Assembly: GCF_000226255.1 (NCBI RefSeq)
Contig: NZ_AGFG01000034.1
Span: 124,001-188,000 of the forward strand
Source: Desulfovibrio sp. A2
GTDB taxonomy: Bacteria; Desulfobacterota; Desulfovibrionia; Desulfovibrionales; Desulfovibrionaceae
Length of the DNA: 64,000 nt
Direction of reading: 5' to 3'
The notes below the pieces were generated by a model. The model ran no database searches. It was not told where the DNA came from and saw only the letters and a list, made by a program, of their open reading frames with translations. How positions within the stretch are numbered: position 1 is the stretch's first letter; each line of letters opens with the position of its first letter. Below are positions 2,038 to 50,619 of the stretch, in pieces. The translations under genes and the position numbers were made by a program.

Positions 2038-2221
2038 CTTCCCGCATGCCCGGCCATCAGGGTGACCGAACGGCCAAGGAGCGTGCGGAACGGCAAGGCG
2101 GGCCTGCGTTCTTCCATATGTGGAACGGGCGACATCCCCGCGCGCGGCGGCCCGCCCGTTGCCCACGCCCCTTCGCGCCCGCCAGCTTGACAGCGTCGCC
2201 GCGCGGGGCCTATCCATGACC

Positions 2222-3544
<1,323 letters not shown>

Positions 3545-44107: not shown

Positions 44108-44977
44108 TCAGCGGCAGAGCCGCTGCACCAGCCCCATGATGTCGTACACCAGCCGGGCCGCCGCGAAATCCGCCGCGTGAAAGCCGTCCAGGGGGGCCAG
44201 TTCCACCACGTCGAAGCCCAGCACCTGCCGCCCGGCCATGGCCAGTTCCAGGCAGCGCCGGGCGTCGTACCAGCCAAGGCCGCCGGGCACCGGGGTGCCG
44301 GTGGCGGGCATGATGGAGGGGTCCAGCCCGTCCACGTCGAAGGTCACGTAGATGCGCTCCGGAAAGTCCGGCCGCAGCAGCGGGTCGGGGATGCCGTGGC
44401 GGGCCAGCGCGGCCGCGTCCAGATGGCCGACCCTTAGGGCGGCACGGCAGTCCACTTCTTCGCGGCACAGGGCGCGCACCCCGATCTGGAACAGCGGCAG
44501 GCCAAGGTCGGCCACGGCGCGGCGCATTACCGCAGCGTGGCTGTAGCGCGTGCCGCCGTAGCTGTCGCGCAGGTCGGCGTGGGCGTCGAACTGGACGACA
44601 CCGAACGTGCCGTGCTGGCGGTGCAGCGCCCGCAGTGCACCCAAAGTGACGGTGTGTTCGCCGCCCAGCAGCACGGGCAGGCCGCCGTGGGACAGGGCCG
44701 TGGCCGTGGCCGCCTCGATGCGTGCCAGCACCGCCTCCGCCCCGCCGGAACAGTCCACGGCAGGCGCGGTGTGGATGCCAAGTTCGGCGGGCACCGATTC
44801 GCCGTCCCACAATTCCAGTTGGTCCGACGCTGCCAGGATGGCGGAAGGCCCCGCCGCCGTGCCCCCTCCGTAGGAGACGCTTTCTTCGTAGGGAACCGGA
44901 ATGACATGAAAACGCGCCCCTTCCGGCGCAACGTCGTCCAGTTCAGAGGCCAGGAAACGCCCTTCGGCGTGCCGCAT
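44108..44977 (-). CDS. speB: Agmatinase SpeB
   Basis: 289 residues from ATG 44977 (CGGAG 6 bases upstream). It has the ureohydrolase signatures: VLLGGEHTVTLGALRAL, VVQFDAHADLRDSYGGTRYSHA, and VTFDVDGLDPSIMPATGTPVPGGL, which supply the Mn2+-binding His and Asp residues. It hydrolyses agmatine to putrescine and urea, the step after arginine decarboxylase. It is the last gene of the polyamine cluster, 178 bases after the selenoprotein-like gene. Confidence 0.93.
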   Translation of the reverse strand: MRHAEGRFLASELDDVAPEGARFHVIPVPYEESVSYGGGTAAGPSAILAASDQLELWDGESVPAELGIHTAPAVDCSGGAEAVLARIEAATATALSHGGLPVLLGGEHTVTLGALRALHRQHGTFGVVQFDAHADLRDSYGGTRYSHAAVMRRAVADLGLPLFQIGVRALCREEVDCRAALRVGHLDAAALARHGIPDPLLRPDFPERIYVTFDVDGLDPSIMPATGTPVPGGLGWYDARRCLELAMAGRQVLGFDVVELAPLDGFHAADFAAARLVYDIMGLVQRLCR

Positions 44978-45154
44978 GGCAAGCTCCGGTAACGCCTTCC
45001 CGCGCAGGGAGGCGGCTGTGTGCCCAACCGCGCAGCATGACACCCCTGACATGCCGCGCGGCCCTTCCAACATCCGCCGCCCTTCAACGGGGACGACGGC
45101 CGAAACAGTGAAACGAAACTCGCTGTCCGCGCCGTGTGCGCGGACATGGCGGTG

Positions 45155-45466
45155 CTACAACGCCGACTTTTCCGCCGCGATGATGTCCAGATACGGCCAC
45201 AGCCACAGCAGGCGGCGCAACCGTACCACCACGTCGCCCCCGGCGCGCTCGGGCCGCAGGTCCGGGTCGGACCAGATGGTCACGCCTTCGCGCTCCTCGC
45301 GCCGGAACCGGGCGGCGTCGCGCCCCTTGGGCTTGCCCACGCGCACGGCGGGGAGGCTCAGCAGCGAGCCGCCGCCTCAGCAGCCGCGCAGGGGCTGGTA
45401 GTATAGCGTGATGTGCCCGCCGCGCCCGGCCACGTGGCGCAGGGCATCCGGCTTGATGTCGATCAT
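45155..45466 (-). CDS. Probable selenoprotein with Cys-Sec (CU) motif; in-frame TGA at 45377-45379
   Basis: 103 residues if the TGA at residue 30 is read as selenocysteine. ATG 45466 has GGAGG exactly 5 bases upstream. The frame begins MIDIKPDALRHVAGRGG, reaches C29-U30-GGGSLLSL, and runs on without another stop through GKPKGRDAARF and a basic C-terminus to TAA at 45155. The two halves read as one continuous, charged, normally composed protein. A hairpin of SECIS type directly follows the TGA. The layout resembles the small HesB-related family I recall as CC/Se-motif proteins, where other members have Cys at this place. It lies 79 bases after nspC and upstream of speB on the same strand. Selenium-insertion genes are not in the window. 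Function unknown; a redox role is inferred from the CU pair. Confidence 0.75.
45347..45376 (-). promoter_or_regulatory. SECIS-like hairpin directly after the in-frame TGA
   Basis: On the minus strand the 30 bases after TGA fold into an apical stem GGCTC-GCTGCT-GAGCC, extended by a lower stem GGCGG/CCGCC across a small bulge. The apical loop starts with G, as in bacterial SECIS elements. The loop is 11 bases from the TGA, a little closer than in well-studied cases. Confidence 0.5.
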
Positions 45467-45545
45467 GACGGCCTCCGGAAAGATGCGTCCTGCCCGGATG
45501 GTAAGCCCGGCGTCCGGGCCGGGCAAGTGCGGCGTGCCCGCCGCA

Positions 45546-46760
45546 TCAGGACAGGCGGTACTTGAACGCCTCGTACCCGAAGGAGCGCACCACCTCGCGT
45601 CGCGCGCCCCGCCCATCCGCATTCGCCGGCCGGTAGCGGGCGATGGCGGGCAGTTGCAGCCCGTTGAAGGTGGTGGTCTTGACCATGCTGTAGATGGCCA
45701 TGTCCAGGAAGGCCAGCCGGTCGCCGGGTTGCAGGGGCGCGTCGAACGAGTATTCGCCGATGACGTCGCCCGCCAGGCACGACTTGCCCGCGAAGCGGCA
45801 GGTCCACGCCTTTTCGCCCGGCAGGCCGGAGCCGATGCAGCCGGGGCGGTAGGGCATTTCCAGCACGTCGGGCATGTGTGCGGCGGCGGAGGTGTCCAGG
45901 ATGGCGATGGGCATGTCGGCCTGCACCACGTCCAGCACCGTGCACAGCAGCACCCCGGCGTTCAGCGCCACGGCCTCGCCCGGCTCGATGTACACCTGCA
46001 CCCCGTACTTCCGCTGCATGCGCTCGATGCACCGGCACAGCAGGTCGATGTCGTAGCCCGGCCGGGTGACATGGTGCCCGCCGCCGAAATTCAGCCACTT
46101 CATGCGGCCGAGGTGCGCGCCGAATTTCGCCTCCACCGCATCCAGGGTGCGGTCCAGCGCATCGGCGTCCTGCTCGCACAAGGTGTGGAAATGCAGGCCG
46201 GAAATGCCGTCCAGCGCGTCCTTGCCGCGTGCCGCGGCCTCGGCCAGTGCAGCCTCGAAGTGGTGGGGCCGCACCCCCAGGCGCGAACCGGGCGAGCACG
46301 GGTTGTAGATGGCCACGGCCCCTTCCGAGTGCTCCGGATTGATGCGGATGCCGCACTCGATGGGCCGCCCCGCAGCCGCCACCTGCGCGCGGAAACGGTC
46401 CCACTGCGCGAACGAGTTGAACACCAGGTGGTCGGCCAGGGTCACCAGCTCGGCCATGTCCGCATCGCTGTACCCGGCGGCAAAGGCATGCACCTCGCCC
46501 CCGAATTCCTCGCGGCCCAGCCGCGCCTCGTGCGGTGAACTGGCGCAGGTGCCGTGCAGCACCCCGCCGTGCGCGCGCGACAACAGCGGAAACAGGCTCC
46601 ACATGGCAAAGCCCTTCAGCGCAAGCAGCACCTTGGCCCCGGTGCGGCGCTGCACCGTGTCCAGGATGGCGGCGTTGGCCTCGATGCGTGCCTCGTCCAC
46701 CACAAAGCACGGGGACGGGAAGCGGGTGGGGTCGAGCTGTTGCAGGTACTTGCTGTCCAT
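45546..46760 (-). CDS. nspC: Carboxynorspermidine/carboxyspermidine decarboxylase NspC
   Basis: 404 residues from ATG 46760 (GAGGTG 5 bases upstream). A fold-III PLP decarboxylase: the PLP lysine is K49 in LLALKGFAMWS. GTCASSPHEARLG, GLHFHTLCEQDADAL, LNFGGGHHVT and YIEPGEAVALNAGVL are characteristic of NspC. The C-terminal half carries the GEYSFDAPLQPGDRLAFLDMAIYSMVK block. It decarboxylates carboxynorspermidine or carboxyspermidine to the triamine. It works after the dehydrogenase encoded upstream. Confidence 0.95.
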   Translation of the reverse strand: MDSKYLQQLDPTRFPSPCFVVDEARIEANAAILDTVQRRTGAKVLLALKGFAMWSLFPLLSRAHGGVLHGTCASSPHEARLGREEFGGEVHAFAAGYSDADMAELVTLADHLVFNSFAQWDRFRAQVAAAGRPIECGIRINPEHSEGAVAIYNPCSPGSRLGVRPHHFEAALAEAAARGKDALDGISGLHFHTLCEQDADALDRTLDAVEAKFGAHLGRMKWLNFGGGHHVTRPGYDIDLLCRCIERMQRKYGVQVYIEPGEAVALNAGVLLCTVLDVVQADMPIAILDTSAAAHMPDVLEMPYRPGCIGSGLPGEKAWTCRFAGKSCLAGDVIGEYSFDAPLQPGDRLAFLDMAIYSMVKTTTFNGLQLPAIARYRPANADGRGARREVVRSFGYEAFKYRLS

Positions 46761-46795
46761 GACGGCACCTCGCGGCGGGGGAAAGGGGGGAACGC

Positions 46796-46833
46796 GGGGA
46801 GAGGGAACCTCTTGGAAGAGGTTCCCTCTCCCC
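46796..46833. repeat. Perfect 18-base-pair hairpin between dehydrogenase and nspC genes
   Basis: GGGGAGAGGGAACCTCTT, loop GG, and its exact complement. It lies in the 175-base gap between two co-directional polyamine genes. It could attenuate or process the transcript, or be a dispersed intergenic element. Confidence 0.75.
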
Positions 46834-46935
46834 GCACCCCTCACCCTCCGGAACGTTTCACACGGAAATGCTGATGGCGGCGGAAGGAACCGGTCCTCCC
46901 GCCGCCCGAATCATCAACGGGAACGATGTGTACCG

Positions 46936-48126
46936 CTATTTCTCAACGACCACCCACGGCAGCCCGTGCTTGTTCAGGGCGTCCATGAACGGGTCGGGGT
47001 CCAGCTGTTCCATGTTGTACACGCCCTTGCCGGACCACTTGCCGGTCACCATCATCATGGCGCCGATCATGGCGGGCACGCCGGTGGTGTACGAAATGGC
47101 CTGCGAACCCACCTCGCGGTAGCATTCCTGATGGTCGCACACGTTGTAGATGTAGACGGTCTTGGGCTTGCCGTCCTTCACCCCCTGCATCAGGCAGCCG
47201 ATGCAGGTCTTGCCCTTGGTGCGCGGGCCGAGGGATGCCGGGTCGGGCAGCAGCGAACGCAGGAACTGGATGGGCACGATCTTCTTGCCGTCGTGCTCCA
47301 CTTCGTCGATGCGGGTCATGCCCACGTTTTCCAGCACCTTCAGATGGTTCAGGTAGTTGTCCGAAAAGGTCATCCAGAACCGGGCGCGCTTCAGGCCCTT
47401 CAGGTTCAGCACCAGCGATTCCAGTTCCTCGTGGTACATGAGGAAGCACTTCTTCGCGCCGATGCCGTCCGGAAAGTCGTAGTTCATGGACCACGACAGG
47501 GGGTCGGTTTCCACCCATTCGCCCCATTCCCAGTAGCGGCCGCGCGCGGTCACTTCGCGGATGTTGATTTCCGGGTTGAAGTTGGTGGCAAAGGGGTGGC
47601 CGTGGTCGCCCGCGTTGCAGTCGATGATGTCGAGCACATGCACTTCGTCCAGCAGGTGCTTCATGACGTAGGCGCAAAACACGTTGGTCACGCCGGGGTC
47701 GAAGCCGCTGCCCAGCAGGGCCATCAGCCCGGCCTTCTCGAAGCGCTCCTGGTAGGCCCACTGCCACTTGTACTCGAACTTGGCCTCGTCCAGCGGCTCG
47801 TAGTTGGCGGTATCCAGGTAGTGCACGCCGGTTTCGAGACAGGCGTCCATGATGGTCAGGTCCTGGTACGGCAGGGCGATGTTCAGCACCATGTCCGGCT
47901 TGTACGCGCGGATCAGCGCCACCAGCTCGGGCACGTTGTCCGCGTCCACCTGGGCCGTTTCGATGGTGCGCCCGGTACGGGCCTTCACGTCCGCGGCAAT
48001 GGCGTCGCACTTCGACTTGGTGCGGCTTGCCAGCATGATTTCGGAAAACACGGAGGGAACCTGCGCGCACTTGTGGACGACCACGCCGCCCACGCCGCCA
48101 GCGCCGATGATGAGGACACGTGCCAT
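46936..48126 (-). CDS. Saccharopine dehydrogenase-like carboxy(nor)spermidine dehydrogenase
   Basis: 396 residues; ATG 48126 has AAAGGAG 6 bases upstream. N-terminal Rossmann motif RVLIIGAGGVGGVV, then MVLNIALPYQDLTIMDACLETGVHYLDTANYEP and ALLGSGFDPGVTNVFCAYV, typical of the LYS9-like family. Standing directly before nspC, it is best read as the dehydrogenase joining aspartate semialdehyde to putrescine or diaminopropane with NAD(P)H. Lysine metabolism is a less likely role because no lysine genes are near. Confidence 0.9.
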   Translation of the reverse strand: MARVLIIGAGGVGGVVVHKCAQVPSVFSEIMLASRTKSKCDAIAADVKARTGRTIETAQVDADNVPELVALIRAYKPDMVLNIALPYQDLTIMDACLETGVHYLDTANYEPLDEAKFEYKWQWAYQERFEKAGLMALLGSGFDPGVTNVFCAYVMKHLLDEVHVLDIIDCNAGDHGHPFATNFNPEINIREVTARGRYWEWGEWVETDPLSWSMNYDFPDGIGAKKCFLMYHEELESLVLNLKGLKRARFWMTFSDNYLNHLKVLENVGMTRIDEVEHDGKKIVPIQFLRSLLPDPASLGPRTKGKTCIGCLMQGVKDGKPKTVYIYNVCDHQECYREVGSQAISYTTGVPAMIGAMMMVTGKWSGKGVYNMEQLDPDPFMDALNKHGLPWVVVEK

Positions 48127-48442
48127 GACGCACTCCTTTGCGCACCCCGCCCGCCCCGAGCACCCATGCCCGGCAACGCGCGACCGCGCGACACTGCTGT
48201 GGTTATCCCGAACGGCCAGCCCCACACCATGGGACGGCCCCGCTTGTTGCCTGTATGCGCCGGTGACCGGCGTCAGCATACCATGCGATCCGCACGGCAT
48301 GCATCAAGGGTATCCTGCTTCGACGGGGTGCGGAACACTTTGAAAGCTCAACGCCTTCTTTGTGGCATCGCGTCACCCGCCGACAGTGCGATATTCACCG
48401 CATCGCAGTGGTGCCATGGCGCCCGCATCCGAAAAAGGCATC

Positions 48443-48565: not shown

Positions 48566-50503
48566 TTAGCGTTCGAAGTAGGTGTAGCCCCGCAACCCAT
48601 CCTCATACGCCTGCATCACCCGGTACCGATCCGAGGGGGTGATGCGCCCCTCGCGAACGGCCTGTTCCGCGGCCTCGCGGATGTCGTCGATGATGCGGCG
48701 GGGGTCGTATTCCACGTACGACAGGATGTCCGCCACGGAATCGCCGCGCAGTTCGCGCACGAATTCGTAGCTGCCGTCCTCATGTACGCGCACCGAAACC
48801 ACGTTGGTGTCGCCCAGCAGGTTGTGCAGGTCGCCCAGGGTTTCCTGATACGCCCCCACCAGGAACACGCCGAGGTAGTATTCCTCGCCGGCCTTCAGAG
48901 GGTGCAGGTCCAGGGTGCCCTTCACGCCTTGCGGGTCGATGAAGTGGTCGATGCGGCCGTCGCTGTCGCAGGTGATGTCGGACAGGATGCCCTGGCGCGA
49001 GGGCAGCTCGTTCAGGCGGTGCAGGGGCACCACCGGGAACAGCTGGTCGATGGCCCACGAGTCGGGCAGCGACTGGAACACGCTGAAGTTGCCGTAGTAG
49101 ATGTCGGCCAGGGCCACGTCTATCTCGGCAAGGTCCTTGGGCACGTGCTTCAGCTTCTGCTTCTCCTGGGCGATGCGCTTCATGATGGCCCAGAAGTAGC
49201 GCTCGCCAAGGGTGCGTTCGCGCAGGGTGATGCGCCCGGTCAGGAACTGCTGGCGCACTTCGTCGCGGTAGTACACGGCGTCGTTGTAGCATTCCTGCAG
49301 GTTGCGCAGGGTAAGACCGGCCAGCGCCTCGCGCATGTTGCGCACGGGCTCGGGGCAGTCGTCGGGCAGGATGTCGGGCAGGTTGCCGATCTCCACGCGG
49401 CTCACGTCCAGGATGTTGAACAGCAGCATGGAGTAGTAGGCCACGGTGGCGCGGCCCGATTCGGTGACGATGTGCGGATGGGCGATGCCTTCCTCGTCGA
49501 GGATGTTCATCACCGCCTCGATGATGTCCGCGCAGTATTCGTCAAGGCTGTAGTTGCGGCTGCTCACGTAGTTGGTGTGCGAGCCGTCGTAGTCCACGGC
49601 AAGGCCCCCGCCAAGGTCCAGGTAGCCCATGGCCGCGCCTTCGGCCACCAGGCCGCCGTAGATGCGGCAGGCCTCCATGACGGCGGCGCGGATGTCGCGG
49701 ATGTTCGGCACCTGCGACCCCAGGTGGTAGTGCAGCAACTGGAAGCAGTCGAGCATGTCGTGGTCCTTCAGCAGATCCACCACGTCCACGATCTGCGCCG
49801 TGGTCAGGCCGAAGGTGGAGCGTTCGCCGCCAGAATCGGTCCAGTGGCCGCCCGCCTTCACGGACAGCTTGGCGCGCACGCCGATGAGCGGGCGCACGCC
49901 AAGGCACTTGGAGCGTTCGAGGATGAGCGGCAGCTCGCTGGCCATTTCCAGCACGAAGAAGCACTTGTAGCCCATGCGCACGGCGTGCAGGCCAAGGTCG
50001 ATGAACTCCTCGTCCTTGTAACCGTTGCAGACCAGGCAGGCCTCGCGGTCGCGCAGTTGCGACACGGCGGCGATGAGCTCGGCCTTGCTGCCTACCTCCA
50101 GCCCGTGGTGGTAGCGCGAACCGAACTGGGCGATCTTTTCGACCACCTGCTGCTGCTGATTGACCTTGATGGGGAAGATGCCCCGGTATTCGCCCTTGTA
50201 GCCGAGCGACCCGATGGCCTTACGGAAGGATTGGTGAAGACTGGTGATCTGGGAATCGAGAATGTTCTCGATGCGCAGGAGCACGGGCATGTCATAGCCG
50301 CGCTCCCGCATGCCCCGGATGATTTCCGGGATGCTTACGGCAGGACCGCGGTTGTCTCCGAAAGGATAGACCACGACATCGCCGCTGGCGGCGACATCGA
50401 AGTACCCGGCACCCCAATTGCGGATGCCATAGAGCTCAGCGGAGTCTTCGACACTCCACTGTTGCAGCGTACGGTTTCTTGCCAATTCCCGAACCTCATA
50501 CAT
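48566..50503 (-). CDS. speA: Biosynthetic arginine decarboxylase SpeA
   Basis: 645 residues from ATG 50503 (ACGGGGT before it; an ATG 8 codons upstream is less likely). A large fold-III PLP enzyme, normal SpeA length. The PLP lysine is K113 in GIFPIKVNQQQQVV. Other hallmarks are GLEVGSKAEL, GGHWTDSGGERSTFGL, LLHYHLGSQVPN and YLDLGGGLAVDYDG. It converts arginine to agmatine, the substrate of SpeB. First gene of the polyamine cluster, with a clear promoter upstream and a structured repeat downstream. Confidence 0.96.
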   Translation of the reverse strand: MYEVRELARNRTLQQWSVEDSAELYGIRNWGAGYFDVAASGDVVVYPFGDNRGPAVSIPEIIRGMRERGYDMPVLLRIENILDSQITSLHQSFRKAIGSLGYKGEYRGIFPIKVNQQQQVVEKIAQFGSRYHHGLEVGSKAELIAAVSQLRDREACLVCNGYKDEEFIDLGLHAVRMGYKCFFVLEMASELPLILERSKCLGVRPLIGVRAKLSVKAGGHWTDSGGERSTFGLTTAQIVDVVDLLKDHDMLDCFQLLHYHLGSQVPNIRDIRAAVMEACRIYGGLVAEGAAMGYLDLGGGLAVDYDGSHTNYVSSRNYSLDEYCADIIEAVMNILDEEGIAHPHIVTESGRATVAYYSMLLFNILDVSRVEIGNLPDILPDDCPEPVRNMREALAGLTLRNLQECYNDAVYYRDEVRQQFLTGRITLRERTLGERYFWAIMKRIAQEKQKLKHVPKDLAEIDVALADIYYGNFSVFQSLPDSWAIDQLFPVVPLHRLNELPSRQGILSDITCDSDGRIDHFIDPQGVKGTLDLHPLKAGEEYYLGVFLVGAYQETLGDLHNLLGDTNVVSVRVHEDGSYEFVRELRGDSVADILSYVEYDPRRIIDDIREAAEQAVREGRITPSDRYRVMQAYEDGLRGYTYFER

Positions 50504-50619
50504 ACCCCGTTTACAGGTGCATGCCACGGCGCCGCCTTTGCGGCGGGCCGACCAGAGCCTCTCTCTTCCCCCATGCGCTGGTGCAGGACAGGGGCGCGCA
50601 CGCGTTGGAAGAGTGGCAC

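Follow-up and report, generated by a model that had tools for sequence, protein, structure and literature searches.

The A-type iron-sulphur (Fe-S) carrier IscA features Cys35 together with a C-terminal Cys-x-Cys. According to a review (PMC13188914), HesB-like selenoproteins (TIGR01911) are characterised by a UxGP motif, and NF041239 is a hypothetical protein whose occurrence is predicted for Moorella thermoacetica, with a motif stated as CxxU. DVU_1382 of Desulfovibrio vulgaris is assigned to the HesB family in a passage of PMC1914089. The 64,000-nucleotide stretch analysed here (the window; positions 124,001 to 188,000 of contig NZ_AGFG01000034.1 of Desulfovibrio sp. A2) contains, on the minus strand, a gene for a 103-residue protein (45155..45466) that very probably belongs to NF041239, the "CC/Se motif family (seleno)protein", and whose in-frame TGA is almost certainly decoded as selenocysteine (Sec), to judge from comparison with its relatives. 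The first-pass annotation of this DNA had mentioned such small Cys/Sec proteins as an existing class, and NF041239 is indeed on record in the corresponding listing of PMC13188914; the family was known beforehand, and the window gene is a new member of it.

A TGA-interrupted frame of the NF041239 family

The frame of 103 codons runs from 45466 to 45155 with a TGA at codon 30 (45377..45379, minus strand) as its sole interruption, ends with TAG, and is preceded by a ribosome-binding site GGAGG (45472..45476, minus strand) 5 bases upstream of the ATG. The motif around the TGA reads C29-U30-G31-G32-G33, and there is no Cys downstream of residue 30. On rechecking the sequence, the coordinates, protein length, position of the TGA, CU-GGG motif and Shine-Dalgarno spacing all proved to be as first described, except that the terminal stop had been given as TAA. 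A TGA-joined frame is in itself unremarkable in this GC-rich window, in which 120 such frames (55 on the plus and 65 on the minus strand) start at least 20 codons before the TGA and then stay open for at least 60 codons. The frame is judged real because of homology, not because of the bare TGA pattern.

The read-through protein scored 45.4 bits against NF041239 (cut-off 40; 41.7 bits in a six-frame search), with a match spanning model positions 2-76 of 91. Pfam scans yielded nothing over cut-off, and the label PF28096 carried by relatives was not recovered on scanning three labelled relatives. Matches to NF041239 were found in 14 of 348 genomes of the class (15 places) and in 11 of 297 genomes of a phylum sample (13 places, including the window gene itself), and the motif contains a TGA in 22 of the 27 distinct places from these two surveys. 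Four of the seven genomes behind named metagenome-derived loci also gave matches (13 places, 11 inspected). Homologues align across the TGA, and the residue-30 column of alignment A4 holds Cys or Sec in all 12 members, which had been selected for having the motif.

The cleanest test of Cys/Sec exchange is a pair of Bacillota metagenome-assembled genomes (L129 and L130) whose proteins are 75% identical and whose neighbouring genes are alike: the codons aligned with residues 29-30 are TGC-TGT in the former and TGC-TGA in the latter. The same swap is seen at 47% identity between L128 and L131. Other members have Sec-Cys (L061, L065), Cys-Cys (L069), Sec-x-Cys (L035, L042) or Cys-x-Cys (the P0014 group) at the motif, and two adjacent TGA codons in L033 and L046 predict a Sec-Sec pair. 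As read from these sequences, the variants CC, CU, UC and UU all occur at this place. No such pair is present in L034, L044 and L070, which argues against a universal role for it.

The genus, taken to be Nitratidesulfovibrio from database fragments 89-90% identical to the window protein, is represented by eight genomes (G000-G007), the window's own among them. A match occurred in 8 of 59 genomes (own included), namely seven of the eight genus members and one genome of the same order. The window's form (A, Cys-Sec) is found in four genus genomes (G000, G001, G004, G006), the other three copies being 94, 92 and 90% identical to it, and a paralogue (B, Cys-Gly-Sec), about 36% identical to A, is also found in four (G003, G005, G006, G007), so that G006 carries both. 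In the six-frame search, the B copies scored 39.2-41.5 bits, with one just below the NF041239 cut-off of 40. The TGA is retained in all eight copies. Among variable codons of the A and B copies, 49 of 64 differ only synonymously, compared to 27% expected for random single changes, both before the TGA (17/21) and from the TGA onward (32/43); because the sequences are related, p-values for this excess overstate its significance. The 14 codons from the TGA onward vary less than the rest (2/28 versus 62/181, p 0.0018; p 0.010 when codons with an amino-acid change are left out).

The first-pass annotation had suggested that gene callers would split or miss this gene, and the databases agree. One protein-database search with the window protein returned 12 matches, all of 57-63 residues; ten of them span 59-61% of the query and the other two 28%, and the five sequences inspected among those ten all begin downstream of the TGA. 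Across two such searches, the close copies are fragments of 42-63 residues only, including those 89-90% identical to the window protein from N. vulgaris Miyazaki F and N. liaohensis. Gene callers therefore do cut the gene, and the selenoproteins of Nitratidesulfovibrio are consequently undercounted.

Selenocysteine machinery and candidate insertion element

The genome contains selA (613.6 bits, cut-off 268), selB (354.6 bits, cut-off 242), selD (356.1 bits, cut-off 125), whose own frame contains a TGA, and selC, the gene for tRNA-Sec (80.2 bits, cut-off 47), with anticodon tca by ARAGORN. Sec is favoured over a stop at codon 30 because relatives align across the TGA, the TGA is kept in all eight genus copies, TGT and TGA replace each other at this position and the decoding genes are present. 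Cys or Sec at residue 30 of relatives and a complete set of sel genes were what the first-pass annotation had proposed to look for, and both were found; none of the observations it had named as contrary (no homologues across the TGA, no machinery, homologues ending at residue 29) was made.

Bacterial selenocysteine insertion sequences (bSECIS) are described in the relevant section of PMC13188914 as hairpins with 3-9 nt in the loop and 4-16 bp in the stem, G as the first or second loop base and 16-37 nt of spacing, a model which some of them fail. Directly after the TGA of the window gene lies a candidate stem-loop (45347..45376, minus strand) with lower and upper stems of 5 bp each and the loop GCUGCU, but its loop begins 11 nt from the TGA versus the published 16-37, and 25% of control positions are as good. 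The best simple hairpin within 16-37 nt, with its loop starting 29 nt after the TGA, is formally compliant but weaker and matched by 55% of control positions. Fold z-scores were near zero for stretches of 50 and 44 bases and -1.3 for 37 bases. The SelD and HesB genes of the same genome have compliant hairpins, the former with a spacing of 20 nt (5% of control positions as good) and the latter with one of 25 nt (7%).

In a survey of 21 family members folded against control positions, six of the group f21 (L061, L063, L064, L066, L067, L071) displayed a strong hairpin spaced by 17-20 nt that no more than 1% of controls equalled, and L033 and L046 a compliant one at 21 nt (0%). Controls did as well in 9% of cases for L068, 20% for L072, 46% for L042 and 49% for L065. 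The four B copies have a hairpin at 32 nt (3, 8, 11 and 42% of controls), and no compliant hairpin was obtained for L035. A SECIS, perhaps an atypical one, is suggested in the window gene; it is not established, because the stronger hairpin lies too near the TGA and the properly spaced one is no better than chance.

Genomic position and the polyamine genes

The selenoprotein gene lies within a series of polyamine genes on one strand, in the order speA (arginine decarboxylase, 48566..50527, TIGR01273 and NF003763, over cut-off), a carboxynorspermidine synthase-like dehydrogenase gene (46936..48300, best NF043000, 429 bits, below the cut-off of 800), nspC (carboxynorspermidine decarboxylase, 45546..46844, TIGR01047, 466.6 bits, cut-off 409), the selenoprotein gene, and speB (agmatinase, 44108..45073, TIGR01230, 205.1 bits, cut-off 174), all on the minus strand. 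Its ATG is separated by 79 bases from the nspC stop. A pattern scan between nspC and speB, a weak test, detected neither a sigma-70-type promoter nor an intrinsic terminator, and co-transcription with the polyamine genes, like any functional tie to them, may be supposed from this arrangement.

Form A, form B or both directly follow nspC on the same strand in seven of the eight genus genomes (own included); the eighth, G002 (75% complete), gave no match to the selenoprotein gene. The gene is in turn followed by speB in five of these seven. No speB match was detected at E 1e-30 in G004 (99% complete) and G006 (86% complete), both of which keep the selenoprotein gene. These two genomes do have nspC, so their putrescine may be made by a different route or be taken up. 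In G004, A is preceded by the same 22 bases as B is in G003, G006 and G007, as would be expected if an original B-A tandem had subsequently lost one of its copies.

Outside the genus, the gene was found at none of the 23 best nspC loci (tblastn, E 1e-3; some loci incomplete), five of which show nspC followed by speB, and no homologue was seen by eye in the nspC-speB gap of L116-L118. NspC of the window was matched at E 1e-60 or better in 201 of 345 class genomes, so that, set against the 14 of 348 with NF041239, nspC mostly occurs on its own, unaccompanied by the gene. In the tests run, retention together with polyamine genes did not extend beyond one genus. The link to polyamine synthesis drawn in the first-pass annotation thus holds for a genus-specific position after nspC, but not further, as the other members whose surroundings were inspected occur in other contexts and the gene persists where speB is gone.

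Elsewhere, family members occur near genes for CstA, aldehyde ferredoxin oxidoreductase, nickel superoxide dismutase (Ni-SOD), Bax1-I, HMA, AIRC (LarB-like), acetyl-CoA hydrolase and NifU; these neighbours were chosen by eye and do not amount to a tested enrichment, several being metal or redox genes and several not. Members in L048, L051, L082 and L083, mostly without a Cys/Sec pair, adjoin cstA, which was recognised by Pfam in L048 and L082 and by eye in the remaining cases, including a CstA-like ORF in L060. Members with the sequence GGUACS are close or adjacent to genes for aldehyde ferredoxin oxidoreductase (Pfam AFOR; L049 3102-4973, L050 5788-7623), and a Sec-Cys member adjoins a Ni-SOD gene (Pfam Sod_Ni; L077 5893-6369, minus strand). 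The window further contains a cobalamin riboswitch (2209-2388, plus strand, 105.1 bits).

Predicted fold, possible function and described systems

The family of the window protein is assigned to the IscA/SufA/HesB (A-type) fold by two predicted models, with modest scores, and by profile comparison, which also aligns Cys29 with the Sec position of HesB. A sequence-based search for a solved structure gave no convincing match. On the strength of these predictions, the window protein probably has an A-type fold. The fold link offers a first structural clue to an uncharacterised selenoprotein family, together with a site that can be tested. The resemblance to HesB proposed in the first-pass annotation was retained at the level of predicted fold only: the protein is distinct from the known HesB-like selenoprotein family, whose genes stand apart in this genome. 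One of these separate HesB-like genes (L091 1402-1722, minus strand) encodes the motif PGGUSGP, scores below the TIGR01911 cut-off and adjoins a paralogue that has neither Cys nor Sec at that place.

The best overall explanation, to which we give an even chance, is a Sec-decoded protein of A-type fold with a Cys-Sec redox or soft-metal pair. The selenocysteine machinery would read codon 30 as Sec to give a 103-residue selenoprotein, and the loop which in HesB carries a single Sec, and in IscA Cys35, would hold the adjacent Cys29-Sec30. This pair would carry no Fe-S cluster; it may cycle between Cys-SH/Sec-SeH and the selenenylsulfide, or bind a soft metal ion, so that the protein would serve different enzymes as a small redox partner or metal relay, produced in Nitratidesulfovibrio from a spermidine operon site directly after nspC. 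Whether the vicinal pair is such a site rather than part of an Fe-S ligand set is by itself an evenly balanced question.

An ordinary stop, leaving a 29-residue peptide, a second 63-residue ORF from the GTG at 45346 or a broken gene, might be argued from the abundance of TGA-joined frames in the window, the lack of a clear bSECIS and the databases' listing of the second half as a protein. Against it stand the TGA kept in every genus copy amid mainly synonymous change on both sides, Cys or Sec at this position in relatives with through-running frames, and the complete machinery, which together make it highly improbable. A true, perhaps dimeric, A-type carrier of Fe-S clusters or iron, in which Sec would strengthen a cluster ligand, would suit the predicted fold, the alignment of Cys29 with the Sec of HesB and the NifU-like gene near the relative in L059; without a Cys after residue 30 the Cys-x-Cys of IscA has no counterpart, the pair itself is missing from some relatives, and this reading seems unlikely.

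A helper dedicated to polyamine synthesis, protecting or metallating a pathway enzyme or making the output of spermidine follow selenium or redox status, would explain the location after nspC throughout most of the genus and the sharing of this site by two paralogues. We consider it rather improbable, given that nspC usually occurs without the gene and that other members lie near CstA, aldehyde ferredoxin oxidoreductase, Ni-SOD, HMA or NifU genes. A helper of agmatinase in particular is unlikely because the gene is retained in G004, which is 99% complete and has no speB match, and likewise in the less complete G006. The reading as a Cys-Sec redox or soft-metal protein can be extended, to a scenario that is doubtful as a whole: NF041239 would be a separate A-type branch that traded the three-cysteine Fe-S site for a CC/CU/UC/UU pair and serves as redox or soft-metal relay beside differing client enzymes, and in Nitratidesulfovibrio an ancestral tandem pair would have settled after nspC, coupling spermidine synthesis to selenium or redox state.

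New here are the full-length members of the genus, the sharing of a single site by two forms, the CU/UC/UU/CC series at the motif and the A-type reading of the fold. The series represents a natural experiment on why bacteria place selenium at this position. Should the operon position prove important, it would link selenium and polyamine synthesis; no such link appeared among the literature matches listed for carboxynorspermidine and selenoprotein terms, and of these matches only the Nautilia profundicola genome paper contains both.

With the A-type proteins IscA, SufA and DsrR, the window protein shares the predicted fold across residues 1-101 at 10-14% identity (ten VIA rows); the C-terminal Cys-x-Cys of IscA is missing, which counts against a role as an A-type Fe-S carrier. 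Predicted fold, layout and motif loop are common to it and the HesB-like selenoprotein TIGR01911, but the latter has a lone Sec and UxGP whereas the window protein has an adjacent pair, CUGGG, without UxGP, and the TIGR01911 profile gave no match to it at E up to 1. The C-terminus of mammalian thioredoxin reductase reads GCUG, and thus has the same four letters and an adjacent Cys-Sec; the proteins are unrelated, and the analogy concerns chemistry only. The closest described system is NF041239 itself, with which the window protein shares a score over cut-off, length, the position of the Cys/Sec pair and a PAVR-G-P stretch, and from whose CxxU, as the review entry has it (PMC13188914), it departs by an adjacent CU, and paralogue B by C-G-U.
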